Both the position numbers and the translations under genes were made by a program. The notes under the pieces were generated by a model. The model was not told the DNA's origin. It worked only from the letters and a program-made list of their open reading frames with translations, and did no database searches. Positions 1,761 to 55,566 of a stretch of 56,523 bases of DNA are shown one piece after another (the first letter of the stretch is position 1; each line of letters begins with the position of its first letter). Origin of the DNA: a virus; the IMG/VR virus record IMGVR_UViG_3300047173_000133, positions 1 through 56,523 of that record. One strand, written 5' to 3'.

Positions 1761-2062
1761 CTTCCTCCGTCCTCACGCCCGTGCCTTGCCCCTGGGGGTG
1801 GTGTCTTCCCAAAATCCTCGGGGATTATACACTCTCGGACATTGCTCCGTCAAGGTCTTTAAGGGCAACCTCGCAAGCTCGGTTGCCCTTAAAGACCTTG
1901 ACCTCTCATGTCCGAGAGTGTATAACCCCTCGGCATTTTGGGTCACACCACCCCAACGGGCAGGCACCGCCTCTCCACCCCCGCGATATCATCTACAACA
2001 TCCTAGCCAACACCAAATCCAACATCATAGGTCTACTCAATATTCTCGGAGAGAAGGAATAA
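1739..2062 (+). CDS. possible small gene carrying the palindromic element in frame
   Basis: An ATG at 1739, overlapping the end of the previous gene by 22 bases, opens a frame of 107 residues that runs without a stop straight through the 187-base palindrome and ends at 2062, five bases before the next gene. The first 14 residues (MDHSPEITSSVLTP) and the last 30 (including IIYNILANTKSNIIGLLNIL) look like ordinary protein. The middle is only the translation of the element. The simplest reading is a small gene into which the element was inserted without destroying the frame. It may equally be a broken gene, so confidence is low. Confidence 0.35.
   Translation: MDHSPEITSSVLTPVPCPWGWCLPKILGDYTLSDIAPSRSLRATSQARLPLKTLTSHVRECITPRHFGSHHPNGQAPPLHPRDIIYNILANTKSNIIGLLNILGEKE
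1781..1967. repeat. palindromic element copy 1
   Basis: A 187-base quasi-palindrome. Outer arms pair GTGCC/GGCAC and GGGGGTGGTGT with ACACCACCCC. Inner arms TACACTCTCGGAC and GTCCGAGAGTGTA are perfect inverted repeats. The innermost stem GTCTTTAAGGGCAAC pairs perfectly with GTTGCCCTTAAAGAC around the core CTCGCAAGCTCG. The block CCCAAAATCCTCGGGGA on the left is only partly complementary to CCCCTCGGCATTTTGGG on the right, and this asymmetry is shared by all copies. Related copies lie at 15990, 29288 and 46848. It is a family-type element, not a simple terminator, because there is no T run after either arm. Confidence 0.9.
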
Positions 2063-6479: not shown

Positions 6480-6739
6480 CCGAGCCCTCGACCCACGAAG
6501 AAAAGGTCGTCCAAATGCTACGGACTCTTGTCACTTGGCTAACCAAAACCTTCGAAAATGATCTCGGCTCAATCCCTTACTCCGACATCAATTTCATTCT
6601 AATCGTTCAGGCCCAATCCCTAGTCCAACTGAGAGCGACCCTAGAAGTCGAGTCAGTCGCCTCCGTCCTCAAACAAATTCTGGAAGGGCTTGAAAACGAC
6701 GAAGACACAACTCCCACGGACATTCTCAAACCCAACTAA
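6476..6739 (+). CDS. hypothetical helical protein, 87 aa
   Basis: It starts at the ATGA overlap with the preceding gene. The protein is helical (EEKVVQMLRTLVTWLTKTFE; VESVASVLKQILEGLEND) and acidic, perhaps forming a complex with its upstream neighbour. No family is recognised. Confidence 0.6.
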   Translation: MTEPSTHEEKVVQMLRTLVTWLTKTFENDLGSIPYSDINFILIVQAQSLVQLRATLEVESVASVLKQILEGLENDEDTTPTDILKPN

Positions 6740-6752
6740 GAGGACCCTTTCC

Positions 6753-8111
6753 ATGACCTCGCTCGACGATCTCATCGACCCAAAGCTCATCACCATCCGC
6801 CGTGACAAACGCCAGCGGCGGATGATTCCGTTGGATGCAGACTTCAAAAAGTCCATCTCCAAACGCATCATTTCCCCCATCATCGTCAATGACATCGACG
6901 GTGAGCTGGTCTTAGTCGCCGGGGAACGGCGCCTCACAGCGGCCTTAGAATTGGGCTTGGCCCTAGTCCCCATCCGCCGCTTTCAGGACCTCTCCCCCGA
7001 GGACGCCCAAATCACGGAAATGGAGGAAAACCTCAAGCGCCTCGACCTCCCCTGGAGGGATTTTGTCCGAGCCATCGGCCAAATCCACACCATTTTCCTC
7101 CAACGTGACCCCCAATGGAGCCTAGCTCAGACGGCCTCTGAAGTCCACTTCTCCTACGAGTACGTCCGCATGATCCTCCAAGTCTACCAGTCCCTCGACT
7201 CGGAAAAAATCGCCCAGGCCACCGGAGTTGAAAACGCTCACAACATACTCCTTCGCCTAGCCGATCGCATGGCGGAGGGTATCGTCAGCAACATCCTTAA
7301 CCAAGGCACCGCAATATTTCAGGCTTCACCCCCACCATCACCCTCGCCAACCCCAAGCCCAGGCCCCGCCTCCGGCCCCATTCCTCCACCATCCCCGCCG
7401 CCTCCACCACCCCCGCCTCCACCCGCAATAACTCAAGCCGATTTCATCCCATGGGCCGATGCCTACACCGGCCCAAAGTTCAACTTCATTCACGTAGATT
7501 TTCCCTACGGGACTTACAAAGGTGACGACAGCAGCGGGACATATACTGTTACCGAGTTCTATGACAATACTCCCGAGGTCTACCTAAATCTTCTTCACGC
7601 CCTCTGCCGCAACCTCGATCGCCTAATCTCCCACTCGGCCCACCTAATGTTCTGGTTCGACATGAAATTTTACACGGAAACTTTCCAAAAGCTTACCGCC
7701 TCAGGTCTCGTAGTCCATCCGCACCCCCTGATCTGGCACAAAACCATCGGAGGCGTAATGCCCGGTAACTCCGTTAGCCATCCTCGGCGTACTTACGACA
7801 CCGCGCTGCTTTGCGTGAAGGGTAATCGGCCCTTCGTCAAACCCGGCGCCTCCAGCTATGCTGCCCCGCCCGTCCACTCTAAGGTCCACCCAAGCCAAAA
7901 GCCCGAGCCCATGCTCCGCTTTTTCTTTTCAATGTTCGTCGATGTTCACACCACAATGCTGGACCCCACCTGCGGCTCGGGTTCAGCCCTCAAAGCCGCC
8001 GAAGACCTCGGAGCCAAGAGTGTCCTCGGCCTAGAACTCGACCCCGAGTACGTCGCCCAAGCCAACGCCGCCATGGTCACTGCCCGAATCCTCCGTATAG
8101 CCGGAAGATAG
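6753..8111 (+). CDS. ParB-like domain fused to a DNA methyltransferase
   Basis: A 452-residue fusion. Residues 1-185 are ParB/Srx-like with the signature GERR (57-60) and a following helical DNA-binding part. Residues 192-224 are an almost pure Pro/Ser linker. The rest is a beta-class amino-methyltransferase: catalytic motif IV appears as DFPYG (249-253; DPPY is usual), HPSQKP is at 379-384, and SAM motif I DPTCGSGS at 404-411 comes last, as expected for that class. It would modify phage DNA at adenine N6 or cytosine N4, with the ParB part guiding binding or hydrolysing nucleotide. The ATG at 6753 has AGAGGACC upstream and is chosen over the longer frame from 6690. Confidence 0.8.
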   Translation: MTSLDDLIDPKLITIRRDKRQRRMIPLDADFKKSISKRIISPIIVNDIDGELVLVAGERRLTAALELGLALVPIRRFQDLSPEDAQITEMEENLKRLDLPWRDFVRAIGQIHTIFLQRDPQWSLAQTASEVHFSYEYVRMILQVYQSLDSEKIAQATGVENAHNILLRLADRMAEGIVSNILNQGTAIFQASPPPSPSPTPSPGPASGPIPPPSPPPPPPPPPPAITQADFIPWADAYTGPKFNFIHVDFPYGTYKGDDSSGTYTVTEFYDNTPEVYLNLLHALCRNLDRLISHSAHLMFWFDMKFYTETFQKLTASGLVVHPHPLIWHKTIGGVMPGNSVSHPRRTYDTALLCVKGNRPFVKPGASSYAAPPVHSKVHPSQKPEPMLRFFFSMFVDVHTTMLDPTCGSGSALKAAEDLGAKSVLGLELDPEYVAQANAAMVTARILRIAGR

Positions 8112-8125
8112 AGAAAAGCCAAAAA

Positions 8126-9262
8126 ATGACAATCAAGGCCCTCATCGTTGCCGAAGCCTATGGCGACCGCGAAGAACGCTACCAACACCACTTGGTCGGC
8201 CCCACCGGGCGTGAACTCGCCGTCATGATGAAAGCGGCGGGCATGATCCCCGAAGGCCCTCCAGAGCACGCCACCGAGTCCCAAATGATCGAATTTTGGC
8301 GAATGGCCAAGACAGACTTCGGCATCGTCGCCACCAACGTCTTCAACCTCCGCCCTCCGGACAACAACCTCGACGCCTTTTTCACCACCAAAACCCTCGG
8401 CCTCACCACCTATCCCCCTTACCTCCGAGGCAAATATCTCCGCCCCGAGTATGCCCATCACGTTGAAAAGCTCTGGCACTTAATCTCGGACCTCCGCCCC
8501 AACCTCCTCATTTGCCTCGGCAATGCTGCCCTGTGGGCCGTCCTCCGTCGTACTGGCATCAGCAACCTCCGCGGGACAACCTCCCTATGCCCGGACCTCC
8601 AAATCAAGACCCTCGCCACCTTTCACCCGGCCTCACTATTCAAAGGCGCTTCCTCCTGGGCCAACCGCCCCATTATCATAGGCGACCTCACAAAGGCCGC
8701 CAGGGAAATGGAGACCCCAGACATCTCCCGGACCAAGCGCTGGTTTTTGGTCAGCCCCACCCTAGCCGAAATCGCCCGCTGGTTCGAGGTCCCCGCCACC
8801 CACTACGCCGTCGATATCGAAACGGGCCGAGCCATCTACACCAAGCTCGAACTCAAAACTTTCTCGCCCCAAATGCACGCCATCCTCAACCGCCAAATCT
8901 CCATGATCGGTTTTGCCCGAAACAAAACGAACGCCATCTGTATTCCGTTCATGACCCGCCATTCCCCCGACCTCAACTACTGGGCTACGGAAGCTGAGGA
9001 AGTCAAGGCCCTACACCTAATCCAAAAAGCTCTCGCCAAACCCATCCCCAAAATCTTCCAAAACGGCATCTTTGACATTCCGTTCCTCTGGTCCTACGGC
9101 CTCCGACCCCGCCATTGTACCGAGGACTCGATGCTACTCCACCACTCCATCTACGCGGAAATGCCCAAAGGCTTAGGCTTTTTAGGAGCTACCTATGCCG
9201 ACGCTCCTAGTTGGAAACAAGCCTACGGCCACGGCGAAGCCAATCTCAAAAAGGACGAATGA
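8126..9262 (+). CDS. uracil-DNA glycosylase domain fused to the front of a DnaQ-like 3'-5' exonuclease
   Basis: A 378-residue protein. Residues 1-200 resemble family 4/5 uracil-DNA glycosylases: VAEAYGDREERY then LVGPTGREL (motif A region), NVFNLRPPDNN and HPASL (168-172). From about 205 a 3'-5' exonuclease begins: Exo I is DIETG (231-235) and Exo II is FQNGIFDIPFLW. The frame ends at KKDE just where the polymerase-linked exonuclease should continue to Exo III. The missing Exo III (YNAYD) is found at the start of the next-but-one gene, so this is the N-terminal part of a split UDG-exonuclease-polymerase, as in SPO1-type polymerases. It likely removes uracil and proofreads in complex with the polymerase part. 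Confidence 0.8.
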   Translation: MTIKALIVAEAYGDREERYQHHLVGPTGRELAVMMKAAGMIPEGPPEHATESQMIEFWRMAKTDFGIVATNVFNLRPPDNNLDAFFTTKTLGLTTYPPYLRGKYLRPEYAHHVEKLWHLISDLRPNLLICLGNAALWAVLRRTGISNLRGTTSLCPDLQIKTLATFHPASLFKGASSWANRPIIIGDLTKAAREMETPDISRTKRWFLVSPTLAEIARWFEVPATHYAVDIETGRAIYTKLELKTFSPQMHAILNRQISMIGFARNKTNAICIPFMTRHSPDLNYWATEAEEVKALHLIQKALAKPIPKIFQNGIFDIPFLWSYGLRPRHCTEDSMLLHHSIYAEMPKGLGFLGATYADAPSWKQAYGHGEANLKKDE

Positions 9263-9266
9263 AACC

Positions 9267-9590
9267 ATGACCCAAGACCCCACACCCGCCTCCACCCCCC
9301 TTTACTACATCAAACTCCTTTGCCTTGCCTATGGCGGCCCGTCAACCTCTTACGATGGCCGCTATCTCGCGGCCTACGATCCCACATGGAACTACGACGC
9401 CCCGCCAAACGGCCTTCTCATCATGAAGCTAGAAACTACCCAAGACCCCGCCGCGGCAATGAGCTTTTCCTCTATAGACGCTGCCTTTGCGTGCTGGCAG
9501 CAAATCTGCCCCAACAACCCCATACGCGCCGATGGCAAACCCAATCGCCCGCTGTCGGCTTTTACTGTGGAGGTCATCCGTTGCCCCTAA
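9267..9590 (+). CDS. conserved small protein lying inside the split polymerase
   Basis: A 107-residue protein starting at ATG 9267, four bases after the exonuclease stop. It has the layout of a small conserved protein I recall from phages and some bacteria: YYIKLLCLAYGGPS, DGRYLAAYDPTW, MKLETTQDPAAAMSFSSIDA, FACWQQICPN and a C-terminal DGKPNRPLSAFTVEV. Function unknown. It separates the Exo II and Exo III motifs of the DNA polymerase, and its end overlaps the presumed TTG start of the polymerase part by ten bases. The ORF looks fully coding, so the gap is not an intron in the usual sense. Confidence 0.75.
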   Translation: MTQDPTPASTPLYYIKLLCLAYGGPSTSYDGRYLAAYDPTWNYDAPPNGLLIMKLETTQDPAAAMSFSSIDAAFACWQQICPNNPIRADGKPNRPLSAFTVEVIRCP

Positions 9591-11932
9591 TCGCCGCTCA
9601 CACCCTGGCGCCCGACAATTCCGACGTTCAAATCTACAATGCCTATGACTGCGCAATAACCTACGAAGTTTGGCAGAACCTCCGGCCCCAAGCCTCTCAG
9701 GCCGGCCCGTTGTATGCCTTTGAGATCGCCCTTCAAGCCCCCGTCCTCGAAATGATGACCCGTGGCTTCAAAGTCGATCCCACAGCTCGGGAAAAAGGCA
9801 TCTACCTTCTCCGTCAACGCCTGGCCCATCTCAGCAACTACATCGATACTCTCGCCGAGGCCGTTTGGGACTACAAACCGCCCGTCCCCAAGGACCTTCA
9901 CTATCCCAAACCCAAACTCCTGAACCCCGACTCCACGACACAACTCATCAAGTTTTTCTACAACACTCTAGGAATCCCTCCGATCCTCAAGTGGCACAAA
10001 GGCGAAAGCAAAACGCCTATGGACCGCGACACCCTAGAAAAGCTCGAAGTCTATTTCCTCGCTCGGCCCATCGTCAACGCCATCCTCGAATACCGCGATG
10101 CCGCCGGCCAACTCGAAGTCCTCGAATCCGAAGTCGATGACGACTGGCGTATGCGGACGACCTACCAAATCGCCGGTACAGACACCACCCGCTTCAGCTC
10201 CTCCAAGTCCATCCTGGGCACAGGCCGCAATCTCCAAAATATCGAGGAAGCGCTCCGCCACATCTTCATTTCGGACGAAGGCTTCAAACTCTATGGCATC
10301 GACCTCGAACAGGCCGAAAGTCGAGAGGTCGGCCTGATGTGCGGCCTATTATTTGACGACTGGACTTACCTCGATCTTTGCGAAAGCTCGGACCTTCATA
10401 CCGCCGTCTGCCAAATAGTCTGGCCCGAATTTCCGTGGACAGGCAATCAGCTTAGGGATCGCCAAATAGCCGATCAAAACTTCTACCGTGAACATTCCTA
10501 TCGCGATGCCACCAAAGTCCTTGGCCACGGCTGCTTAACCGAGGATCATGAAGTTTTAACCCCTTTAGGTTGGGTGCCTATCAGCGAAAAGCCTAGTACA
10601 ATAATGCAGTTTGACGGCAAAGAATCAAAGTTTGTCGAAGTATCCAATTGGACAGATTTTGACTACACAGGAACGCTGCACATTTGGGAAGGGCAAAGCA
10701 TATCGGCGCGTATGACAACAGATCATAGAATATATTACACCGTAGACGCGCCTGATAATCTACACGTGCGCAAAGTTGGCGAGGTGCCTAACAGTGCTCG
10801 TATCCCAAGCGGCTGGGGATATGTCGGTGGCGACAATAGTATCACGCCTGCTATAACTCGTATGATTGCTGCATACCAATGCGATGGATATATTGAGCAC
10901 GGCAGCAATCAAGTAAGATTCCACTTTCACAAACCAAGAAAATTTGAACGATTGGTTAAACTCTGCGAAAACGCCAACCTCGATTGCAGAATATCAGGCG
11001 ATAAAGTTATAGTAAATTGTGCCGCAGCGCATAACTGGCACAAGGCAGCGGGGCCATATTTGCTAAATTGGAGTAAGGAAGCCTTGGAAGCTTATTTAGA
11101 CGAATTGCCCCATTGGGACGGCCATTTTGGTAAAACAAGTACGAGTTTGGCTTCAAAGGACCGTGATCATTTAGACTGGATACGCACCTGCAATCGGATT
11201 TTAGGTAAAGGGGGCAATATACAAAAAGAGCAAATGTCGGGCTTCGGTACTGTCATGTACAAGCTACAAATAAACAATAGACTATTCGCCAGCATGGTCT
11301 CAATGCAATGTACGAAGGAACAGGCAAATTCTGTTCGCGTTCTTTGCCCAACCGTTTCTAGTAGCGCATTTTATATTCGCCGCAAAGAGAAAATTTCTAT
11401 CACAGGCAACTCGAATTATTTAGGACAACCTAGAACGATGGCCGTCCACACCAAAATTCCCCTCAACCTTTGCACAGCTTTCCAAGCCAACTACTTCGAA
11501 GGCGTCCCAGCCATCCCCCGCTGGCAGCAATGGGTCGCCTCGGAACTCCAAACCCACCACCGCCTCACCAACGTCTTCGGCGTCACCCGCGACTTCTTCA
11601 GCCACCCCAACGATGATGAGACCCTCCGAGCCGCTGTAGCCCACGGCCCCCAATCCGCCACCGCCCAGCGACTAAACCTCGGAATGTGGCGGCTATGGCG
11701 CCATTTCCCTGAGGCCCAACTCCTCGCCCAACTTCATGATGCCGTCTATTTCCAAGTCTCAGAGTCCATCCCCGAGTCAGTCGTAGCCAAGAAGGCTTTA
11801 AAGCTAGTCGAAGTCCACCAGCACTTCCGAGGTCGGAATTTCGTCGTCCCGGGCGCAATCTCGGTCGGGCGTAACTGGGGGAAATATAAAACCGGCACGA
11901 ACCCAAATGGCTTAAAGAAAATAGAATTATGA
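9581..11932 (+). CDS. family A DNA polymerase, C-terminal part, with intein
   Basis: The reading frame begins with Exo III (YNAYDCAIT near residue 22) and continues to a family A polymerase. Motif A is GIDLEQAESREVG (about 240-250), motif B is RDATKVLGHG joined after intein removal to SNYLG, and motif C is QLHDAVYF (about 718; HDE is usual, so Ala replaces Glu). I place the start at TTG 9581, eight bases after GGAGG; no ATG lies downstream before Exo III, and the ATG at 9320 falls inside the 107-residue gene. The 783-residue precursor becomes about 490 residues after splicing. It should replicate the phage genome together with the UDG-exonuclease protein. Confidence 0.8.
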   Translation: MPLIAAHTLAPDNSDVQIYNAYDCAITYEVWQNLRPQASQAGPLYAFEIALQAPVLEMMTRGFKVDPTAREKGIYLLRQRLAHLSNYIDTLAEAVWDYKPPVPKDLHYPKPKLLNPDSTTQLIKFFYNTLGIPPILKWHKGESKTPMDRDTLEKLEVYFLARPIVNAILEYRDAAGQLEVLESEVDDDWRMRTTYQIAGTDTTRFSSSKSILGTGRNLQNIEEALRHIFISDEGFKLYGIDLEQAESREVGLMCGLLFDDWTYLDLCESSDLHTAVCQIVWPEFPWTGNQLRDRQIADQNFYREHSYRDATKVLGHGCLTEDHEVLTPLGWVPISEKPSTIMQFDGKESKFVEVSNWTDFDYTGTLHIWEGQSISARMTTDHRIYYTVDAPDNLHVRKVGEVPNSARIPSGWGYVGGDNSITPAITRMIAAYQCDGYIEHGSNQVRFHFHKPRKFERLVKLCENANLDCRISGDKVIVNCAAAHNWHKAAGPYLLNWSKEALEAYLDELPHWDGHFGKTSTSLASKDRDHLDWIRTCNRILGKGGNIQKEQMSGFGTVMYKLQINNRLFASMVSMQCTKEQANSVRVLCPTVSSSAFYIRRKEKISITGNSNYLGQPRTMAVHTKIPLNLCTAFQANYFEGVPAIPRWQQWVASELQTHHRLTNVFGVTRDFFSHPNDDETLRAAVAHGPQSATAQRLNLGMWRLWRHFPEAQLLAQLHDAVYFQVSESIPESVVAKKALKLVEVHQHFRGRNFVVPGAISVGRNWGKYKTGTNPNGLKKIEL
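10532..11410 (+). mobile_element. intein with degenerate LAGLIDADG-type homing endonuclease, in the polymerase active site
   Basis: A 293-residue in-frame insertion between GHG and SNYLG of polymerase motif B. It opens with Cys (CLTEDHEVLTPLGW, block A), has TTDHRI (block B TxxH), and ends FYIRRKEKISITGN followed by Ser, so the +1 nucleophile is Ser and the terminal Asn is present. The penultimate residue is Gly instead of His. The middle has two LAGLIDADG-like helices, IAAYQCDGYIE and LDELPHWDGHFG, consistent with a homing endonuclease possibly weakened by mutation. The DNA is visibly richer in A and T than the C-rich flanks, arguing for recent arrival. Confidence 0.88.
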
Positions 11933-15960: not shown

Positions 15961-15989
15961 CATTGGCCCCTTTCCCAAATGTCATGCCC

Positions 15990-16154
15990 AAGGCCCCCCG
16001 CAGGGGGAGTGACCCAAAATGCCGAGGGGATATACACCGAAGGTCTCGGACTGTCAAGGTCCATCGAGCGTAGCGAGATGGACCTTGACAGTCCGAAACC
16101 GAGGTGTATAATCCCCGAGGATTTTGGGGAAACTCCCCCCAAAGGAAGGGCCTT
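15990..16154. repeat. palindromic element copy 2
   Basis: A 165-base copy in reverse orientation relative to the other three. Read on the minus strand it has outer arm GGGGGGAGT, then CCCCAAAATCCTCGGGGA, TTATACACC, the stem TCAAGGTCCAT with its exact complement ATGGACCTTGA, and the core CTCGCTACGCTCG. The outer ends match copy 4. It fills the whole gap between the stop of the 1567-residue internal virion protein (two bases away) and the endolysin ribosome site. Confidence 0.9.
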
Positions 16155-28100: not shown

Positions 28101-28340
28101 CAGCCCCTGAAGAATCGAGAACTGGAACGGAATGAGTCTCGGAGGCACTGTTCTCCCCGTCTGCTTGCTATAGCCGGCGAAGGCAGTCCCGGCCCTTGAA
28201 TAGGCCCCGCCCCTATAAGACACAAACAGATTTCTGACAGTCGATCCACCGATATGGAACTTCGCTATATCGACCCGTCCATAAAGGCTCGGCGTTAGCT
28301 CTCCCGCGGCAAAAGCAGTGTCAATTAGAGGCAAAGACAT
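25128..28340 (-). CDS. tail tubular protein B (nozzle)
   Basis: A 1070-residue virion protein in the place of T7 gp12. The N-terminus (MSLPLIDTAFAAGELTPSLY then GRVDIAKFHIGG and NLFVSYRGGAYSRAGTAF) is the standard beginning of podovirus nozzle proteins, with the G-E-L-P-L-x-G-R type motif. The body is beta-rich with GT-rich repeats between 340 and 500 and again around 750-830, suggesting insertion domains. It follows the tail tubular A-like protein with a TAATG overlap. Confidence 0.82.
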   Translation of the reverse strand: MSLPLIDTAFAAGELTPSLYGRVDIAKFHIGGSTVRNLFVSYRGGAYSRAGTAFAGYSKQTGRTVPPRLIPFQFSILQGLGLEFGNFYMRVVLNGNYVTEAPLNISNISRADPMVVTVVNNYAPGDWIFISGAAGMPQVNEQTYVVIAATPTQFTAQSVFQIPTDSTNFGIYTGGATAARIYTLVTPWAEVDVRWLKFNQSADVMTICCWNQITGTSYVQQNLIRLADDNWTISPPVFESTMAAPGGLNGASFGAGSTQLWAFSYQVTAVDALTGDESIASAVLDLNNTANPAIVQNTLTVTWQPVVGAGTYNVYRAQPALYPGIDPTAAAVPIGSLFGFVGTVYGTAFSDSGIVADYSIVPPVHEDPFSPGPVISILMSAPGAGFNQATVTATMVSATGTGAVLQPVVIRGGLVSIIVIQSGQNYQLGDTVHITGGAGAIATPNIGPLTGTYPSVPAYFQERQVYAASPNDPDTYWMSKPGLYNNFDKRIPTLPDDSITGTPWAVQVNGIQYMVNMPGGLVVLTGLAAWQLTGVGGSSLNPQPLTPGNQQAQPQAYNGCSPNVPPIKIDLSILYVQAKGSIVRYFEYQIFQNQYYGSDITILSSHLFTGFQIIEWAWTEEPFKIIWAVRDDGTMLALTFLKQQDIQGWTRHDTNGLFLSVCAVTEPPVDALYLCVERFAGGVPSYMIERMDNRIWEDIDDCWCVDAGVALPQPTPAAILTVNTPTGLGAVSGFTGFVGGTEYSYGTTVTVVDDNGQGPGVGATVGLNIFDGVIINFFIISGGAGYISPTLVIFDPLGTGSGANATLTLDNSATFTTSSPVFSLASVGNVIRSGGGIATITQYIGPTEVVANITRPITDIYPNGTMAIPAPFGTWTLTVPTQTVAGLNHLIGAEVTGVADGAIVTPRVVSPAGTVTLDIPATQVILGLGYQVQLQSLYLDGGNPTVQGQRKKIAAVTARVEASGVGMTIGSNQPDGSIQSPAQIQTLWQSMEPLTVKSVPPFGSTVYPLYTGDVRIPVQGGFDTKGQVALQQLQPLPMQVLALIPEFSPGDIPQPPGPTHAQSPPPVRSR

Positions 28341-29269
28341 TAAAAGCTACTTCCATCACTAAAGCCCACGGAATCCCACCCGCCAAATCCGCCACCCCCA
28401 TAACCACCCCAACCACCGCCCAAATTCTCGCCCTCGTTTCCCCATCCGCCACCGCGTCCCCTATTCCTAATCCAATCGGGCAAATGATCAGTCGAGACTT
28501 TGCCCTCATTACCATTAGTAATCCGAGCCTGTTCCAGTTTCGCCTTGACCGCGGCGACCAACTGAGAGCGGACCTGAAGGCCGAACTTCTTATCCCTCGC
28601 CAACGGCAACGCCACCTCACTAGCAATATAACTGACGACGGCGGCCCTAAACAACGAGTCCCACATATTAATATAGGGCATGTACATTGTATAGACGCAA
28701 AAAGCATTTTTGACATTAGTCAAAATCACCGTCCGCCCCGATGGACTCGAATAAGGAATCTCCCACCACTGAGAATCGGCCTGATTAGTGTCAGCAGGAT
28801 AATTATGGTCCACCGTCACTAAGAACGGAGCCGGAACCATACGGATGAAGGCTTGGGGCGAAACTCCCTGTCCGCCCGTCGTCAGGGGCGTATTCGGCGT
28901 AGTATAGTTGGTCAACGACAGAGGAGGCAGCCCAGTTCCCGGAATCCCCTCACCCGACTCACAATTATTCCACGGCACATATCTGACCTTCAGACAATCC
29001 ACCGGATAACTATACTCATAAATAAACGGTTGAGGAACGACGGTCCCAACATTGGCCGTCTGCCCCGTGGCATCCGCCAGCAAATTCATCGGGGCCTGCT
29101 GGCGGGCGAAATCCCAATGGGCACCTCGCTGGAGTTGCCGAACGCACTCATTGTAGGCCCTCAAGCAAACCTTTGCCTCCCTCGTCCCTTCCTCAATATC
29201 TCCAATAATCAAATCAATCCCCGCAGCATCAAGGGCCTGATTCACTACGTCCGCAGGAAGATTCGCCAT
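28340..29269 (-). CDS. tail tubular protein A-like protein, paralogue 1
   Basis: A 309-residue protein of the T7 gp11 or P22 gp4 kind: VNQALDAAGIDLIIGDIEEG, a helix REAKVCLRAYNECVRQLQR, HWDFARQQAPM, then PFIYEYSYPVDCLKVRYV and a helical C-terminus. The Gly-rich end (GGGWGGYGGGGFGGW) is unusual. The frame is open into the palindromic element at 29335, but ATG 29269 follows GGAGG and begins the family sequence, so I start there. Two shorter paralogues lie upstream at 29515 and 30147. Confidence 0.75.
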   Translation of the reverse strand: MANLPADVVNQALDAAGIDLIIGDIEEGTREAKVCLRAYNECVRQLQRGAHWDFARQQAPMNLLADATGQTANVGTVVPQPFIYEYSYPVDCLKVRYVPWNNCESGEGIPGTGLPPLSLTNYTTPNTPLTTGGQGVSPQAFIRMVPAPFLVTVDHNYPADTNQADSQWWEIPYSSPSGRTVILTNVKNAFCVYTMYMPYINMWDSLFRAAVVSYIASEVALPLARDKKFGLQVRSQLVAAVKAKLEQARITNGNEGKVSTDHLPDWIRNRGRGGGWGNEGENLGGGWGGYGGGGFGGWDSVGFSDGSSF

Positions 29270-29287
29270 CGTCTTAGCCTCCGCTCT

Positions 29288-29474
29288 TTGCTTTGCCCTT
29301 GGGGGTGGTGTCTCCCCAAAATCCTCGGGGAGCATACACTCTCGGACATTGCTCCGTCAAGACCTATCGAGAGGACCTCGCAAGCTCGGTCCTCTCGATA
29401 GGTCTTGACCTCACATGTCCGAGAGTGTATGTCCCCTCGGCATTTTGGGTCACACCACCCCAAAGGGCAAGCAA
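29288..29474. repeat. palindromic element copy 3
   Basis: A 187-base copy, same orientation, length and outer ends (GGGGGTGGTGT) as copy 1. Its private stem is GACCTATCGAGAGGAC with exact complement GTCCTCTCGATAGGTC around CTCGCAAGCTCG. It separates two tail tubular A-like genes and ends 19 bases before the ATG at 29269. Confidence 0.9.
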
Positions 29475-29514
29475 GAATCCTTTGGCATAACCCCGCCGCC
29501 CTCTCGCCATCGCC

Positions 29515-30144
29515 TCAGCCCCTCATCCTTGCAGCCATTTCCTCGTCCATGCTCTTCTCCTGAACCTGTTCCTTCTCACTAGTATCGCCAGCCTGGTCAA
29601 TCTTCGCAATTCCGGGCGCGATTTTTTCGGCCAACGCATTGACCATGGCCTGAATAAACAAGCTGTCCCACTGAGTCATGTCCGTCACCTGCCCACTATA
29701 GACAAACAACGCATTGGGCACGTTGCAAAGGATGACCTTAACGGGCGGGGTCAGCGCCTCATCATTCGCAATGTCAAAGATATTGGACGATGGCGAGAAG
29801 TTTGGTATCCAAACCGCCGACGACTTTATCGCCCTCAGCTTGATGCAGTCTCCCGGATACGTATATTCGTAGATCCAAGGCGGGGCTGGATAGGCGGGGG
29901 TCCAAGGTTGGGCGGGCGTGTAGCCATTTAGCGGCGCCTGCTTTAGCAAGATAGCAAGGGCGTTCCGTTCACTAAACCCCCAATCATACATGCGAAGCAA
30001 TTCATCCCGAGTCTGCGCATAATACTCCAGACACAACCTACTCTGTCGGCTGCCCTCAAAAATATCACCAATCCGGCGGGGAAACCCAATCCGTCCCAAC
30101 GCCTCATTGCAAATGTCTTCGACATTTGTCACCACGGAGGACAT
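29515..30144 (-). CDS. tail tubular protein A-like protein, paralogue 2
   Basis: A 209-residue protein with the same plan as the gene at 28340: NEALGRIGFPRRIGDIFEGS, RQSRLCLEYYAQTRDELLRM, YDWGFSERNALAI, then PWIYEYTYPGDCIKLRAI, CNVPNALFVYSGQV, WDSLFIQAMVNALAEKIA. This is the recurring layout of adaptors that join portal and nozzle. Its ATG has only a weak ribosome site upstream and follows the third paralogue by two bases. Confidence 0.78.
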   Translation of the reverse strand: MSSVVTNVEDICNEALGRIGFPRRIGDIFEGSRQSRLCLEYYAQTRDELLRMYDWGFSERNALAILLKQAPLNGYTPAQPWTPAYPAPPWIYEYTYPGDCIKLRAIKSSAVWIPNFSPSSNIFDIANDEALTPPVKVILCNVPNALFVYSGQVTDMTQWDSLFIQAMVNALAEKIAPGIAKIDQAGDTSEKEQVQEKSMDEEMAARMRG

Positions 30145-30146
30145 TT

Positions 30147-30716
30147 TTAGCTATCCCTTCCTTCACCGAGCTGCTCAAACACCTGCTCCGACCCGAGTAG
30201 ATCCCTCGCCGTGTCCAACCGGCCGCTGATCGCCACCGCCAGTTCCGAGGCCAAAAGCCTGACCACGGACTCTCTAAACAATGGGTCCCAAAGAGCTTCG
30301 CTCGGCGTGTTGGAAAACACCGCCTGCGCATTGACCAAATTAGTCCAAATGACCTTGGCCTGGGCTGCCCCCACCGCCACATTTCCCACCGCCCAATTCA
30401 CTGGCAGCGGATTATTGATATCGAGGATGGTCTCGGGCATTACCTGCCGGACCTGAATACCATTCGTCGGATACAGATATTCGTAGAGATACGGTACTGG
30501 CGCCACGTTCCCGCTCAACACCAATATCGCCGTCTTGCGAGAAAAGTCCCATCCAAACTGCCGACCCACCGTCTGCACAGACGGCGTGTAGAGATTTTGG
30601 AGGGCTATTCCGGCGGTGGAGTTGTCAAACGTCGGAGCTACCCCAGTCACCAACGGCTGATTCGCTCCAATCAATTGAATCGCTTGATTGGCAATGTCAT
30701 TAGAGGTCACGGCCAT
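30147..30716 (-). CDS. tail tubular protein A-like protein, paralogue 3
   Basis: A 189-residue protein: IANQAIQLIGANQPLV, TVGRQFGWDFSRKTAILV, YLYEYLYPTNGIQVRQVM, LVNAQAVFSNTPSEALWDPL and FRESVVRLLASELAVAI match the plan of its two neighbours. The longer frame to 30755 is rejected in favour of ATG 30716, which has GGGAGGGAGAG upstream. The N-terminal conserved region is more diverged (no IGDI), so it may serve a different ring of the connector. Confidence 0.7.
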   Translation of the reverse strand: MAVTSNDIANQAIQLIGANQPLVTGVAPTFDNSTAGIALQNLYTPSVQTVGRQFGWDFSRKTAILVLSGNVAPVPYLYEYLYPTNGIQVRQVMPETILDINNPLPVNWAVGNVAVGAAQAKVIWTNLVNAQAVFSNTPSEALWDPLFRESVVRLLASELAVAISGRLDTARDLLGSEQVFEQLGEGRDS

Positions 30717-30732
30717 CGGAACTCTCCCTCCC

Positions 30733-33700
30733 TCAACAATGGGTAACAATGCCATTAGTCACGGCGAAGCTCGTCGTAGGCAACCCCGAACAATTCACCC
30801 CGGCCACTCCAGAGCTACTCGGTCCCACAAAATAAGCCCTAGAGTAAACCGCCGCCCATGGGGAACCAATCGACCCATCCGTCAAGTATGTTAGGTTAGG
30901 AATCGGACTTGAATTTAGGTTAATCGAGGTATCACTGGCAGAGCCAAAAACCAGTGTCGTGCCGCTCTGCCCTAGCATGGCATAAGCACTTGTCTGGCTG
31001 ACATAAGTGTTACTGTAAACTGCACCCCCACTCGCCGTCTCTAGATTAGCGGCTGTTACCGCGCCAGTGAAAACCGGACTTGAAGTAATACTCACTACCG
31101 GCGCCCCAGTCGTCGGAGACACGATGACGTTGCCACTCCCCGTGACCGACGTTACCCCGCCTCCACCCGCACCGCAAGGCGCTCCCGTCCCAACCAACAC
31201 CCCACTAGGGTTAGCTTCAACGCACTGGAGCGCTCCGGAAGTTAGGTTCGTCGTCAAATTCCCATTCATCACCAAAGACGTAATATAGGCATTGGCAAAA
31301 TATTCCGCCGACGTTCCCAAACTATTTCCATAAATTATATTCCAAGGATCACCAGCAGCCCCGAGATTGTAGGTACTCGCGGAAACGGGCTGAAAGCTAT
31401 TATAACCCACAATCGGCGATGCGGCGTTGCCTAAAAGCGTTCCTCCACCCGTCCCACTAAACCCAATCAACTCATGAGAGTTGTTATCGTAGAGGTTGAT
31501 TCCGGCCACCACCCCCGCATTACCAAGGGTCATAGTCACAGGCCCCGAGGAGGCACTAAGCCCGATGTTAGCATTGGTCGAGGTCAGGGTCGTCACCCCC
31601 GTACCTTCGTTGAGATTAGGAACTCCTCGGACATTAAGAATGTAGGCTGTCCCGGCGTTGATCTGATAGGTCTGGGACCCAGCCGCCCAAGCCCCTCGGG
31701 CAGATCCTCCCTCCCACGTTATTGTGGGGGCGGAGACACCTCCCGTCGCCAAAAACAATGTCGCCTGGGCGCCAGCGGCGGCAGCGCCGATGTCCATGTT
31801 GACAAACTTCCACCCGTAAGCCACATCATTGGTGGAAATAGCATCGACCCCGTAAATCACCCCGTCCATATCTACATTGGTAAACTTCCCATATCCCGCG
31901 ATAAACGTAGGCCCTACGGAGTAGCTAGAGTCTGCAAACACAATCCCGTCGAACTTAGCTCCAATAGCAATATTTGAGCCAAAGAACGAGTCCATCCGCC
32001 CGAAGTGCATTCCCACTCCATTCGCCATGACCCAAGTGTCAATAGTATTAGGCACCGTCCCCGGCGTGAGATAGGTATCGTAAAACTGTCCCATAGACAC
32101 ATTATTGACGTAAACATTGTCCGCCGGCCCGTCAATCAACATCCCTGCGGAGAACGAGCCAATCTTCATGTCCTCGACCACCACCCGCCCAGTGAACAAA
32201 TTCAATCCCACATAAGCATTGACCAAGGTGATCCGTCGGATGGCCGACGTTGTAGCTGAGTAAATCATCGCTGGCTCGACGATCGGCGTAGTGCCCGTGG
32301 GCGCGGTCTGATTGGGATCGTAGATCACCACGTCGGAAATGCCCGAATTAATGCCCGTGAGATTGACGAAGCCATTAGCCCCATAAGTATTGACTAAGAG
32401 CGTCGGAGCAGCCACCGTCGTCGCCGGATTTGTCCCCGCGTCAAATGGCCCCGTGACTTGGCCACTAACCATGACGTAATTCGGCACGCTAAACGTGTTC
32501 AACAAAAACGCCCCATTGGGGATCAGCACCGTGCCTCCGCCCGAGGCGCTTACCGCTGCCATAGCCGCATTGAGTGTGGCCGTGTTCGTCGCGGCGGACC
32601 CCAACGTAGTAAAGGCCCCGTATTGAGTGACCGAGACGCTAAAGCTATTATTGAACCCAGGTACGCTAGACGAGTTCGTGACCAACATCCCCGCCACGTC
32701 GGGCGCTACAGTCGCCGGTACTCCAGAGGCGTTCCATCCCGCAAGGCCATTGGCCAAAGGACCAATCCCGCCCAACGACCCACCCGAGTTAATTTGGATC
32801 GAGTTCGGCAAACCTCCAGCCGCCGCCGTTCCCGACGGATAACAATTGGCCCCAATGTTCTCAATCACCGACCCTGAGGCTGTGGTACAAAGCGAGTCTA
32901 CAATGACACCAGAGGTAGCCAACCCCGAGAACGTCACATTGGACGTGGCTAGGAGGGTGGTGAACACGGGCGAAGCCCCCGCTCCATTGGCCGCCGCCGT
33001 CACCAGCCCCTTAGAATTGACGGTGATATTGGCGAAGGTGTAGGACCCAGGCGTCAGATTGACATTATCAAGGGTCAAAATCCCCAAATCACTCATCGTA
33101 GCATCACCCGACATCGCCACGGGCGTAGCCACTGCCAACGGATTTCCAACCCAAAAATACCCATCGGCCAACGTCGGCAACCCACTTCCAGTGCCCGAGG
33201 CCGCATAGGTCAGGCGCCCATCAATCCCCACAGTCAAACTGGTGTTGGTGTAGGTCCCGGCGATGACCCCCGAGTTAGCAATCCCCGCCGAGGTCACTTG
33301 GGCAAACACCGGAGGAAGTCCAGAGCCCTGACTAACCAAAGGATAGCCAATAATTCCTGGTCCCGTGCCGCCCAACACTCCACCCGCGTTATACTGGGTC
33401 GAATACAAGGCTCCACTGGGCACTCCGCCCGCCGTGCTCCACACTCCATCCGCCCGGAGGAAATCCGCTATCCCGCCCGGCGAGATTGGCACTGCCCCAG
33501 AAGCCACCGTCGAAAACACATTCACCAATGATGTGAGTTGGATTTGGCTCAACGGCAACGGGACAGCGCTGCCCACTCCGGCATTGCCCACGACCGTATC
33601 CCCAGGAATAGGTTCTAGGCCCGACACCGGAATATTACAACTCGACCCAAGAGCGCAGAATTGCCCGGCCACAGTAGTATAATCAATCGAGAGGTAGTTG

Positions 33701-44162: not shown

Positions 44163-44232
44163 AGTCCAACTCCATCAAAAAGAGGGGAGGGTCATCCGTG
44201 CTTATGGTGGTCAAATCCCTTTTACGAGCCAT
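44146..44232 (-). CDS. possible short open frame before the 263-residue protein
   Basis: An ATG at 44232, nine bases after GGGAG, opens 28 codons (MARKRDLTTISTDDPPLFLM then ELDYGRSS) ending at 44146, overlapping the start of the next gene. The spacing looks like a translated leader, but the sequence is too short to prove coding. Confidence 0.3.
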   Translation of the reverse strand: MARKRDLTTISTDDPPLFLMELDYGRSS

Positions 44233-44464
44233 TTCAAAGCACTCCCTTCATAAAAGTTGACCGTCTCTCCGATCTGTCACGCCTAGAGCCTCAAGACAGT
44301 TTGGCGTTCACTCGATACCCGGCTCCTTGGTCCGATAGCTCGCGGCGACACTGCCAACCACCGACTCCTTCAACACATCACTGTGGCCGCTCTAGGATGA
44401 TTTCAACGGGGGAAGGTGTCAGCATCGACCTTGCGTGTCAGCCATTCCATGGAAACCGCTCCCC
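44233..44464 (-). promoter_or_regulatory. 232-base gap downstream of the cement gene
   Basis: No gene or tRNA is seen. Reading on the minus strand, ACTTTTATGAAG could be a weak -10 region ahead of the 263-residue gene. A stretch reads as VLKESVVGSVAASYRTKEPG, then a stop, then CLEALGVTDRRDGQLL, so it may be the remnant of a coding region. No hairpin was obvious. Confidence 0.3.
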
Positions 44465-46105: not shown

Positions 46106-46162
46106 GATACACCTCTTATTTAACTAAAACTATGGCACAATTGCCTTATAAAACCTTTATTT
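46106..46162 (-). promoter_or_regulatory. AT-rich leader of the major capsid gene
   Basis: The short gap before the TTG start is much richer in A and T than its surroundings and contains GTTTTATAAGGC, a TATAAG -10-like hexamer without a clear -35 partner, the small palindrome GGCAATTGTGCC and the ribosome site AAGAGG. A capsid promoter is plausible. Confidence 0.4.
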
Positions 46163-46191
46163 TCTAACATAGGAGCTACCGCTTATGTTAG
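46163..46191 (-). terminator. hairpin at the end of the methyltransferase-like gene
   Basis: CTAACATA and TATGTTAG pair around AGC...GCT and overlap the TAA stop of the gene at 46188. There is no T run after it, so an intrinsic terminator is weak; it may be an mRNA processing or 3' protection hairpin ahead of the capsid message. Confidence 0.4.
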
Positions 46192-46820
46192 GCCACATCC
46201 CGCATTTGCGCGGTACGGGCTATTGAAATCAGCAAGTCTCGGAACGGCAGCGGCGAGCGGTTGCGTTTGGCCTGCTTATCCTTTCCGCCTTCCATGGCGA
46301 CGACACCGATCTTCCGCGCCTTCTCGTAGCCATACCGCTCGATCATCCATTGTGGAATAATTTGCGGGTGACGGTCGGTCGGCAGTTCGGGCAGATCGAC
46401 TCCATAGGCAAGGAGCCAAGTCGGTTTGCGCGCCTTGTGACCAAAGTTCGCTTGGTCAACCGCGCAGGTCCAGCCGCCGAAATCGTCAGCCCTGATCCAG
46501 CCTTCGCCGAATTTCGGCTTGGCCAGATTGAAGAACTCGGCATCCCACGCATGGCTGTCCTTCGGATGCTCCAGCACGCCGCCGCACCGCCGCACCGCTG
46601 CCAGGGCGTGCGCGAAACAACCGGCGTCGTCACCCATTTTGTATTGGTGCGGCTTGCGGGTTGAGCCGTGCCAGAACCGGCCCCAACGCTGGCAGGGCGG
46701 GTGCGCGACCACCGGGTAAGAGCCGTCATAGGTACGAGCATCCCGCGCTTCATCCCACGGATCGACGTCGGGGAGGTTGAAATAGACGCCGTTGATTTCG
46801 ACGTAGAGCGCGGCAATCAT
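46188..46820 (-). CDS. DNA cytosine methyltransferase-like protein (short)
   Basis: A 210-residue protein. VVAHPPCQRWG contains a PPCQ motif like catalytic motif IV of cytosine-5 methyltransferases; CGGVLEHPKDSHAWD follows as in the ENV-like region. The SAM-binding FxGxG is not evident, and the whole is far shorter than a standard enzyme, so it may use a different cofactor site or not be active. The frame is open to 46916 through the palindromic element, but ATG 46820 starts the protein-like part. It lies between scaffold and capsid, where no such gene is expected, together with element copy 4. Confidence 0.55.
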   Translation of the reverse strand: MIAALYVEINGVYFNLPDVDPWDEARDARTYDGSYPVVAHPPCQRWGRFWHGSTRKPHQYKMGDDAGCFAHALAAVRRCGGVLEHPKDSHAWDAEFFNLAKPKFGEGWIRADDFGGWTCAVDQANFGHKARKPTWLLAYGVDLPELPTDRHPQIIPQWMIERYGYEKARKIGVVAMEGGKDKQAKRNRSPLPFRDLLISIARTAQMRDVA

Positions 46821-46847
46821 GACCACAACCTTCCTAACATTTTGCTT

Positions 46848-47024
46848 GGCCCTTCCTTTGGGGGAGTTTCCCCAAAATCCTCGGGGATCATACACTCTCG
46901 GACCTTGCTCCGTCAAGGCTTTTGAAGCAACCTCGCAAGCTCGGTTGCTTCAAAAGCCTTGACCTCGCAGTTCCGAGAGTGTATGCCCCCTCGGCCTTTT
47001 GGGTCACTCCCCCTGCGGGGGGCC
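46848..47024. repeat. palindromic element copy 4
   Basis: A 177-base copy in the same orientation as copies 1 and 3 but with the outer ends of copy 2 (GGGGGAGT, GGGGGGCC). Its private stem is GGCTTTTGAAGCAAC with exact complement GTTGCTTCAAAAGCC around CTCGCAAGCTCG. It lies 28 bases upstream of the ATG at 46820 and 32 bases after the scaffold stop. Confidence 0.9.
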
Positions 47025-47056
47025 TTCGGTATAATAGGGGGCTCAAACTACCCTCC

Positions 47057-50823: not shown

Positions 50824-51612
50824 TTAACCTCTCTGATTTTGCAAATGCCCCGTCGGATCTGGGTACGGGTCAAATTCAAACTGCATTTGCCGCCGGTTAT
50901 GGCCCGGAAGTGCGCCTGGCCGGCCGCCCCACTCGTCGTAGGGGCGCATAACGGCCAGATTAATGCCAGTCATAACCAGATACCGAGTGGCGTCCATCAA
51001 GTGATCATCCAATTTGACGATTTTGCCCTTTTCGTCTCGCCTATAGATCCGATATTCATTCAGCCAATTGAGGCAGGTCTTGAAAACCTTCAATCGGCCC
51101 GTTGAAAGCCTGCTCCAGACCTTATAAAGGCCCGCTTGGACGGCATTATCGGCGGAAACTAGGCTCAATCCTAAGGCCATATATTCTTCCATTATCTTTT
51201 CGCCATCGCGCTGGCTATGTCCGTTAGCCGCGGGGTCAATTGTGCCCGGAACCCACAACCCCCGAGACTTTATTGCCTCGGCGTGGATTGGGGGTTCGGC
51301 CTCGCCCCGATAATATTCGTTGTAGAGGTAGAGGATGTCGGTTTCTGGGTCCAGCGCACCCCAAATAACCGCCGTCCGCCTCCAACCCACGTCCATTCCG
51401 TAGGCATATTTGTAATAGGCCGGAATGACAAAAGGCTCACACGTTACATCGTCTTCATCGACGGGGTAAATGGCGCCGGCTCCAAGGGAAGGTATGCCCT
51501 TAGTCCGGGCGGCCCTCTCATTCGGCAAATAACTGGCCTCAAGCGAGGCTTTGGCCGCGTCATCGAGGTGGGGAACGTCCTGCCAAGAGGCAAATACGGC
51601 GAATTTACTCAT
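50824..51612 (-). CDS. large terminase, C-terminal nuclease part
   Basis: A 262-residue protein corresponding to the RNase H-like nuclease half of a podovirus terminase. SKFAVFASWQDVPHLDDAAK, RAARTKGIPSLGAGAIYPVD, GMDVGWRRTAVIWGALDPET with the first acidic residue of the nuclease, PGTIDPAANGHSQRDGEKIM, and DHLMDATRYLVMTG carrying the last acidic residue are visible. Its ATG overlaps the stop of the ATPase half by four bases, so the two parts are made in equal amounts and should assemble. A frame error in the sequence would be an alternative. Confidence 0.8.
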   Translation of the reverse strand: MSKFAVFASWQDVPHLDDAAKASLEASYLPNERAARTKGIPSLGAGAIYPVDEDDVTCEPFVIPAYYKYAYGMDVGWRRTAVIWGALDPETDILYLYNEYYRGEAEPPIHAEAIKSRGLWVPGTIDPAANGHSQRDGEKIMEEYMALGLSLVSADNAVQAGLYKVWSRLSTGRLKVFKTCLNWLNEYRIYRRDEKGKIVKLDDHLMDATRYLVMTGINLAVMRPYDEWGGRPGALPGHNRRQMQFEFDPYPDPTGHLQNQRG

Positions 51613-52379
51613 TGTGGCAACGCGCCTTCAAGACGGGCGCCACCGGGCATATAACTTAAGACTACGCCCGAGAGACCTTTTAGGGGCGTGAAGGTACACA
51701 TTACGATCCCGGAGGGCTGGCCGGGGACTGTGGACATCGTGCGAGTTAGACCTTCAGTGTAAAGCCCGATGGGAGGTTCCTCATCAAACAACATCACCCC
51801 GACTTTCGACGCCTGAAAGCTTTCACGGCCCTGGTCGTAGGACTTCAAAACCAATCGCCAAGCTCCACCCGACTTGTGTTTGACGGTGATACTGTCAACG
51901 GCATCTGGTACGCCCGATCGGGGCGTCGTGTTTAGGATTTTGTCTGCGGGAATCAGGCCCGTCCCAAAGGCATTTGGCTTGCCTAACAAAGTCTCCTGGA
52001 CGCTCTCGCGCACGGCCTTTGAGTCCTCGCCTGCCGCCCAGGCAGTGTCGGGCTCATAAAACCTTCGGCCGACCCACCAAGGAGGATACCAGCCGGTCAT
52101 GTGGCACGTCAATTCATAACAGGCCGCCATGGTCTTGCCGACGCGGTTGGCGGCGATGAACCCGCGCTCTTGATGAATGGCTCCGGCCGCGAAGAAGGCC
52201 ATGTGCTTAGGGTAGAGTTCTCGGCGGAGTGGCCCGGTGTCAGGAAAGAGCCTGTAAAGAAGGTTTTGTGATTGGATTTTTTGTTCCGCGTCCAGAAAAG
52301 CCACCAGCTTCGCAAGTTCCCGTGGCGGCAGGTTGGCGACCTGATCTTCCGTTAGATTGAGGAACTGGTCTGGGATCAT
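51609..52379 (-). CDS. large terminase, N-terminal ATPase part
   Basis: A 256-residue protein with the packaging ATPase: YPKHMAFFAAGAIHQERGF, Walker A-like AANRVGKTMA, TWAAGEDSKAVRESVQETLL-type helix, and Walker B GVMLFDEEPP, followed by the coupling motif-like VMCTFTPLKGLSGVVLSY. It ends at GALPQ and continues functionally with the nuclease part through an ATGA overlap. The domain boundary coincides with the ATPase-nuclease linker. It packages DNA with the TerS-like protein at 52928. Confidence 0.82.
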   Translation of the reverse strand: MIPDQFLNLTEDQVANLPPRELAKLVAFLDAEQKIQSQNLLYRLFPDTGPLRRELYPKHMAFFAAGAIHQERGFIAANRVGKTMAACYELTCHMTGWYPPWWVGRRFYEPDTAWAAGEDSKAVRESVQETLLGKPNAFGTGLIPADKILNTTPRSGVPDAVDSITVKHKSGGAWRLVLKSYDQGRESFQASKVGVMLFDEEPPIGLYTEGLTRTMSTVPGQPSGIVMCTFTPLKGLSGVVLSYMPGGARLEGALPQ

Positions 52380-54795: not shown

Positions 54796-54826
54796 AACAA
54801 TCTCAGAAAGAAAGTCTTTAATTAAA

Positions 54827-54852
54827 GGCAGAGGAGATAAATCTCCTCTGCC
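54827..54852 (-). terminator. intrinsic terminator after the 232-residue gene
   Basis: A perfect 12-base stem GGCAGAGGAGAT/ATCTCCTCTGCC with two bases between arms. In the minus direction it is followed by TTTAATTAAAG, a short T-rich run. It ends the unit of the gene at 54868 and makes it independent of the terminase block. Confidence 0.75.
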
Positions 54853-54867
54853 CTTCGTTAAAGGCTT

Positions 54868-55566
54868 TTAGTCGAAAAGACCAGAAGCTTTAATTTCGTC
54901 CACGCTCGGGGCGACAACAGAAGACTTCTTGCCCTTTGCCTTGTTTTCAGCCAGCACCAATTCCAAATGCTTTTGAACACGTGGCGCCTGTTTGACGCTG
55001 TTCGTAATTTGCGCTACCATAGCATCGCGCGCTTCCTGGGCGCCCTTGCCTGCTGGCATGGAACGAACTGCCGACCCCAACAATCCAGGCTGCCCAGAAG
55101 CCAGCAAAGCGTTGTGCGCATCAATAAGTTCGCTCCAAGCCCTAAGGCAAGCCTCATATTTCGCCTTTTCCAGCGAAGACATTTGATCAGTGCCGACATT
55201 GGGCGCATAGGCTAGATAAGCCTTCAGCAAAGCTTCTTCGCTGCAAGGGTTGACGGGAGGCGTTTCTCCCTTAGCAATCGCAACATCGCGCTTCTTCTGC
55301 CATGCTGTAAAGGCAGCGTCCTGGTTATTTTTGAACTGCCGACGATAAGCAGCATCGATGACCTTAGCTTCAGCATCGTTCAGAACCATGCCAGTGACAA
55401 AACGCACTGGCAAGGGGACATCGATTTCCCCTATCGTTGTGTCAACAGTACCATGGTCAGCGATGACAATAGGTGTCTCGACGTTGGGCGTCTCGACTTC
55501 GGGCGTCTCGACGACAGGCGCTTGGATTTCGTTAACTTCGTTATCTTTGGTTTGTGCTTTTGACAT
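54868..55566 (-). CDS. hypothetical protein, 232 aa, in its own transcription unit
   Basis: The N-terminal 45 residues are acidic with repeated VETP units (VETPEVETPNVETPIV) and likely disordered. Then FVTGMVLNDAEAKVIDAAYR and QFKNNQDAAFTAWQKKRDVA, a helical body, and a Lys/Ser-rich C-terminus. The gene has a strong ribosome site (AAGGAAG) and is bounded by a promoter region and terminator, which suggests high expression, probably early. No function is recognised; an abundant host-interaction or DNA-binding protein is possible. Confidence 0.65.
   Translation of the reverse strand: MSKAQTKDNEVNEIQAPVVETPEVETPNVETPIVIADHGTVDTTIGEIDVPLPVRFVTGMVLNDAEAKVIDAAYRRQFKNNQDAAFTAWQKKRDVAIAKGETPPVNPCSEEALLKAYLAYAPNVGTDQMSSLEKAKYEACLRAWSELIDAHNALLASGQPGLLGSAVRSMPAGKGAQEARDAMVAQITNSVKQAPRVQKHLELVLAENKAKGKKSSVVAPSVDEIKASGLFD

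Follow-up and report, generated by a model that had tools for sequence, protein, structure and literature searches.

Four near-palindromic elements with outward-facing promoter motifs in a podovirus genome: candidate MITE-like insertions

The window analysed here, the 56,523 nucleotides of viral record IMGVR_UViG_3300047173_000133, belongs to a podovirus with a T7-like tail, a phrog_332 portal and a GP7 capsid. A second viral contig, IMGVR_UViG_3300047473_000048 (G001), is approximately 99% identical to the window over the stretches that the two share and, judged by coordinates, also spans about 10 kb joining the end of the window to its start; this coverage suggests a genome of approximately 66 kb. 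The phage encodes its own primase. No T7-type RNA polymerase was recognised among its proteins, in a family search run without a ringing control, and host promoters should therefore matter. Several other features of the gene map were recorded. Matches to DNA polymerase A are divided between two rightward ORFs (8126-9262 and 9320-11932), the first of which also carries a uracil-DNA glycosylase-type domain, and matches to the large terminase are divided between two leftward ORFs, 50824-51612 and 51609-52379, with a 4-nt overlap. The rightward ORF 6690-8111 encodes an N6/N4 DNA methyltransferase fused to a ParB-like N-terminal domain, and the 263 bp at 44192-44454 are missing from G001, where the flanks join directly.

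Four copies of a near-palindromic element of approximately 185 nt are present, each of which folds along its whole length as a long hairpin:

1781 to 1967, plus strand: copy 1, early region, between rightward genes
15984 to 16152, minus strand (inverted): copy 2, between the internal virion protein gene and the endolysin gene
29288 to 29474, plus strand: copy 3, between two tail tubular protein genes
46848 to 47032, plus strand: copy 4, in an inserted block between the scaffold and capsid genes

When compared to copy 1, copy 3 is 85% identical over 185 nt (E 2.6e-56), copy 4 is 85% identical (E 5.7e-44) and copy 2, reversed, is 72% identical (E 2.3e-13). The original prediction described four palindromic copies whose inner stems differ from one another and still pair perfectly, and this was borne out. 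Its second copy, placed at 15990, is indeed there, but it is inverted, lacks part of the arms and has a spacer rebuilt by insertions and deletions. The centre of each copy is a stem-loop without mismatches:

1849 to 1902: inner stem-loop of copy 1, 22 bp perfect, loop TCGCAAGCTC
16046 to 16096: inner stem-loop of copy 2, 20 bp perfect, tip CGAGCGTAGCGAG on the plus strand
29356 to 29409: inner stem-loop of copy 3, 22 bp perfect
46912 to 46963: inner stem-loop of copy 4, 21 bp perfect

The inner arms are thus 20-22 bp long and 100% complementary in all four copies, with loops of 10-11 nt, and they are the sole perfect inverted repeats of at least 14 bp (loop up to 20) in the window; the same scan over a wider 850 kb returned only the related contig's own copy and two unrelated hairpins. 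A long imperfect hairpin of another kind, with 28-nt arms that are 86% paired, lies at 54811-54868 beside the leftward ORF 54868-55566, and its G001 version has a 14-bp perfect stem.

The stems were said to be private to each copy. This holds for their middle 11-13 bp, whereas every copy has the same stem base (GTCAAG/CTTGAC) and three of the four share one tip. On one strand the tip reads CGAGC-TT-GCGAG or CGAGC-GTA-GCGAG, is absent elsewhere in the window, and its sequence suggests that it may form tandem sheared G-A pairs. From the outside inwards, the layers are an outermost arm, a conserved arm, a spacer stem, an internal loop (copies 1, 3 and 4) and the inner stem. By their outermost arms the copies form two subfamilies, 1 with 3 and 2 with 4. 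The conserved arm, CCCAAAATCCTCGGGG-A-NNATACAC, pairs with GTGTATNNCCCCTCGGCATTTTGGG and carries an extrahelical A as well as a TC/TC bubble. DNA folding energies of the copies range from -58 to -81 kcal/mol; searches of the element against Rfam and for tRNAs gave no match.

Pairing in the stems has been preserved through extensive sequence change. Between copies 1 and 3, 37 paired positions differ, and approximately 17 pairs are changed on both sides (14 of them standard in both copies), against 4.3 such pairs under random placement and a maximum of 11 in 20,000 trials. Over five aligned copies, 15 of 62 pairs show changes in both partners and no pair shows a change in just one; shuffling gave 7.0 +/- 1.7 both-sided changes, and 0 of 500 shuffles reached 15. 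Only 0-2 of about 70 pairs are G-U in copies 1, 3 and 4, and copy 2 has five on one strand and none on the other. The observation itself is real and well above chance. Of the two causes originally proposed, selected structure or a copying mechanism that renews the palindrome, the latter fits the data better than RNA selection, because one-sided changes are absent and G-U pairs almost so. Template switching is an established source of changes on both sides in a single event (PMC8794818). With many double changes and neither one-sided nor G-U intermediates, the family may offer a compact natural test of hairpin upkeep by template switching, in a setting where covariation would otherwise pass as proof of RNA structure. 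A role of the stems as copy-specific labels was not supported: those of copies 1 and 4, private part included, are identical in the approximately 99% identical G001.

Related phages were compared for empty sites, as had been suggested, and these were found for copies 3 and 4. The latter is part of a larger insertion:

46106 to 47056, minus strand: 951-bp insertion holding copy 4 and a cargo gene, absent from relatives
46188 to 46916, minus strand: cargo gene (phrog_12600), ATG at about 46820, between scaffold and capsid

Where the gap can be read in other relatives (11 of them), 11-30 bp lie between scaffold and capsid, compared to 951 bp in the window. The cargo gene has counterparts in Caulobacter phage Jess A and Pseudomonas phage Persinger (60-62% identity); in other relatives it is not found at the scaffold-capsid site, and in G001 its middle (46260-46797) has been exchanged for approximately 640 bp of other sequence. 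At the copy 3 site, two relatives (G002 and G008) have no space between the tail-tube genes, which abut or overlap there. In the window, copy 3 is flanked by a direct repeat, TCGCCATCGTCTTAGCC / TCGCCATCGCCTCAGCC, a candidate target-site duplication matching at 15 of 17 positions, and none of 300 random placements was as good; flanking repeats are weaker at copies 1 and 4, and there are none at copy 2. The copy 2 site holds a different small gene in G002, and for the copy 1 site there is no comparable relative. Since relatives show empty sites at copies 3 and 4, the copies would be lineage-specific insertions, and the likeness in concept to Rickettsia palindromic elements, as a family of inserted palindromes, is supported. 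A tandem run of three tail-tube-like genes occupies the leftward stretch 28340-30755. Two of them are phrog_394 matches, and alignment with relatives pairs the remaining one (30147-30755) with the same genes.

A feature missed by the original prediction is an outward-directed sigma-70-like promoter motif in each arm. A scan for TTGACA and TATAAT found TTGAC, 16-18 nt and TAT, directed outwards, in all eight arms:

1824 to 1853, minus strand: promoter-like site in the left arm of copy 1, TTGACG-18-TATAAT, 11/12
1898 to 1926, plus strand: promoter-like site in the right arm of copy 1, TTGACC-17-TATAAC, 10/12
16085 to 16112, plus strand: promoter-like site in copy 2, TTGACA-16-TATAAT, 12/12, the best in the window
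16029 to 16057, minus strand: promoter-like site in copy 2, TTGACA-17-TATATC, 10/12, towards the endolysin gene
29331 to 29360, minus strand: promoter-like site in copy 3, TTGACG-18-TATGCT, 9/12, towards the tail genes
29405 to 29433, plus strand: promoter-like site in copy 3, TTGACC-17-TATGTC, 8/12, weak
46887 to 46916, minus strand: promoter-like site in copy 4, TTGACG-18-TATGAT, 10/12, towards the cargo and capsid genes
46959 to 46987, plus strand: promoter-like site in copy 4, TTGACC-17-TATGCC, 8/12, weak

The two best sigma-70-like sites of the window are those in copies 2 (12/12) and 1 (11/12), and no others reach 11/12. With 16-18 nt spacing, 12 sites in the window score at least 10/12; five of these lie in the 0.73 kb occupied by the elements, where 0.07 would be expected, an excess that amounts to one or two independent events, because neither the copies, which have a common origin, nor the mirrored arms are independent. 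In the masked window, outside the elements, the seven remaining sites correspond to background, as a random window of full size would be expected to have 5.4. Copy 2 is the best independent witness for the promoters, because its spacer was rebuilt by indels and yet spacings of 16 and 17 nt were kept; its -35 boxes are also the better ones. The predicted -35 box coincides exactly with the inner-stem base that does not vary between copies, and the predicted -10 box with the equally invariant GTGTAT block, so that a promoter model would account for which parts of the element are conserved. In the right arms of copies 3 and 4 the -10 boxes are poor, the sites scoring 8/12, and each copy also holds a promoter-like site directed against the local genes.

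The explanation that we favour for these data, with about an even chance of being correct, is that the element is a MITE-like palindromic insertion serving as a putative portable bidirectional promoter. A short non-autonomous palindrome would have entered the phage lineage and then spread to four sites, its transposition function presumably supplied from an external source. In both arms, the CTTGAC at the inner-stem base would act as the -35 box and the conserved GTGTAT block as the -10 box, and host sigma-70 RNA polymerase would transcribe away from the centre, across the outer arm on either side and into the flanking genes. Lying upstream of both -35 boxes, the inner stem would be free to drift in sequence; its pairing could be upheld by template switching as the DNA is replicated, with one arm serving as the template for the other, and a tolerance for the hairpin would help to keep the pairing perfect. 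Copy 4 and its cargo gene together recall a moron, here lying between scaffold and capsid. If the promoters work, phages could acquire a portable promoter as a unit, and the cargo gene could come under host transcription inside a late operon. The weak point of this explanation is the conserved bulges (TC/TC and the single A), for which a plain duplex promoter does not account and which unrestricted template switching should have erased. Because the bulges are conserved, we suggest that the folded form is recognised by something, perhaps an element-mobilising enzyme, or RNA polymerase acting on a single strand.

Such recognition could be taken further, as in the single-strand promoter Frpo of the F plasmid: a displaced strand would fold and offer its -35 and -10 boxes to host RNA polymerase, yielding a transcript or a replication primer. 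In DNA folds of either strand, in all copies, both boxes do lie in the duplex stem, with the TC/TC bubble just upstream of the predicted start, and both the conserved bulges and the pairing of any inner-stem sequence would be accounted for. The duplex of the F-plasmid Frpo2 region, however, has no promoter of at least 9/12, matching reports that Frpo is active only when folded, whereas the duplex of the element already reaches 12/12; at the level of motifs this speaks against a strict Frpo but leaves room for a similar use. The phage moreover has its own primase and no known single-stranded stage, and this explanation is in our opinion very unlikely. An arrangement in which hairpin and bidirectional promoters form one machine, with the boxes in the stem usable both as duplex and as folded single strand, and template switching constantly renewing the stem upstream of them, giving every copy a sequence of its own, is also improbable, if somewhat less so. 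The attC sites of integrons offer another comparison. Here too, conserved outer arms with extrahelical bases surround a variable inner stem, a similar overall build that would be recognised as a folded strand, and copy 4 adjoins a gene whose middle is swapped in G001; the copies are however 13-18 kb apart with no array, no integron integrase was seen among the scanned proteins, and by eye there is no obvious RYYYAAC/GTTRRRY core, which leaves a recombination site of this type extremely improbable.

Two further explanations, both of which we consider rather doubtful, dispense with the promoters. According to one, the element is a structured RNA, a hairpin in early and late mRNAs that is an RNase III processing site or an mRNA stabiliser and whose pairing is under RNA selection. 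All copies do lie at gene boundaries in transcribed regions, their folds are very stable (-115 to -144 kcal/mol) and covary strongly, and, among known insertions, Correia and ERIC copies serve as RNase III substrates or expose RNase E sites (PMC10969869). The RNA-processing role already raised in the original prediction is nevertheless weakened, as relatives in which the genes are arranged alike have no hairpin at two of the sites and orientation relative to transcription is not conserved: the tip's G-A-rich strand coincides with the mRNA in copies 3 and 4 but lies opposite it in copies 1 and 2. The near absence of G-U pairs, the lack of one-sided changes and the lack of an Rfam match also speak against it. 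The other scenario is a functionless, selfish palindrome moved in trans by a host enzyme, with the promoter motifs either incidental or the binding site of that enzyme. Four copies with two outer-arm subfamilies and empty sites in relatives are what it would lead one to expect, and ORF 1739-2062 stays open through copy 1 (as does another frame), in the manner of Rickettsia palindromic elements or ERIC. Against it stand the promoter excess, which is unlikely to be incidental, and the lack of a copy in the sampled Pseudomonadota genomes, plasmids or phages. Two other candidates were dropped: GANTC sites are absent from all copies, as opposed to a CcrM-associated repeat, and a scan of copies 1 and 2 for an intrinsic terminator (a GC hairpin followed by a T run) found no terminator-like site.

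Among viral contigs only G001 has the element, as copies 1 and 4; its sequence stops short of the copy 2 and copy 3 sites, and the approximately 10 kb that it covers outside the window contain no additional copy. Exact patterns for both arms and the tip in IMG/VR gave, beyond G001, matches (L106, L107, L121 and L122) without a hairpin, and a relaxed right-arm pattern matched 12 further contigs, none of which fitted the covariance model. In 84,980 species genomes the right-arm pattern matched six times, never within a hairpin of comparable kind. The covariance-model search proposed for bacterial genomes brought no further members in 399 Pseudomonadota genomes, and BLAST found no match in 369 and 385 genomes of two classes, these three samples overlapping in part. 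Phage and plasmid collections likewise gave no match, and the tip motif CCTCGCAAGCTCGG was found in 10 of 289 genomes, without long stems in any. In a distant relative, 25 nt (L108, G020 8450-8474) match the region of the inner stem-loop; this was put down to chance, there being no hairpin with the tip motif. In these collections and sampled genomes, neither a transposase or source element nor a relative of the element beyond G001 was found; given the thin genome sampling, a host genome may still be its source.

When compared to known systems, the element is short and non-autonomous with terminal inverted repeats, as MITEs are: it has 185 nt, with arms paired over the whole length, and needs no protein-coding role. 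It shares with REP, ERIC and BIME the character of an extragenic palindrome that could be mobilised in trans, but it is not a known ERIC sequence and is not high copy in any sampled genome; REPs are palindromes of 20-40 bp with a GTAG or CGTC tag at one end (PMC3733652), far below its approximately 185 nt. Rickettsia palindromic elements, which insert in frame in protein genes, are likewise palindromes of roughly 150-185 nt, and copy 1 similarly keeps a reading frame open, though this frame may not belong to a real gene; the element differs from them in its arm promoter motifs and its phage location. With Frpo and the ssi sites (F plasmid, ColIb-P9) it has in common a long hairpin presenting -35 and -10 boxes in the folded stem, differing in the strong consensus boxes on both arms of its duplex. 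Correia elements, the MITEs of Neisseria, are also short, non-autonomous and intergenic, with inverted arms and outward sigma-70-like promoters (PMC10969869), of which the element has two at the level of motifs. In contrast to them, it is nearly all one palindrome, has copy-specific inner stems and few copies, and resides in a phage, and no TA duplication was seen. The element would be a lineage-restricted form of palindromic MITE bearing putative promoters.
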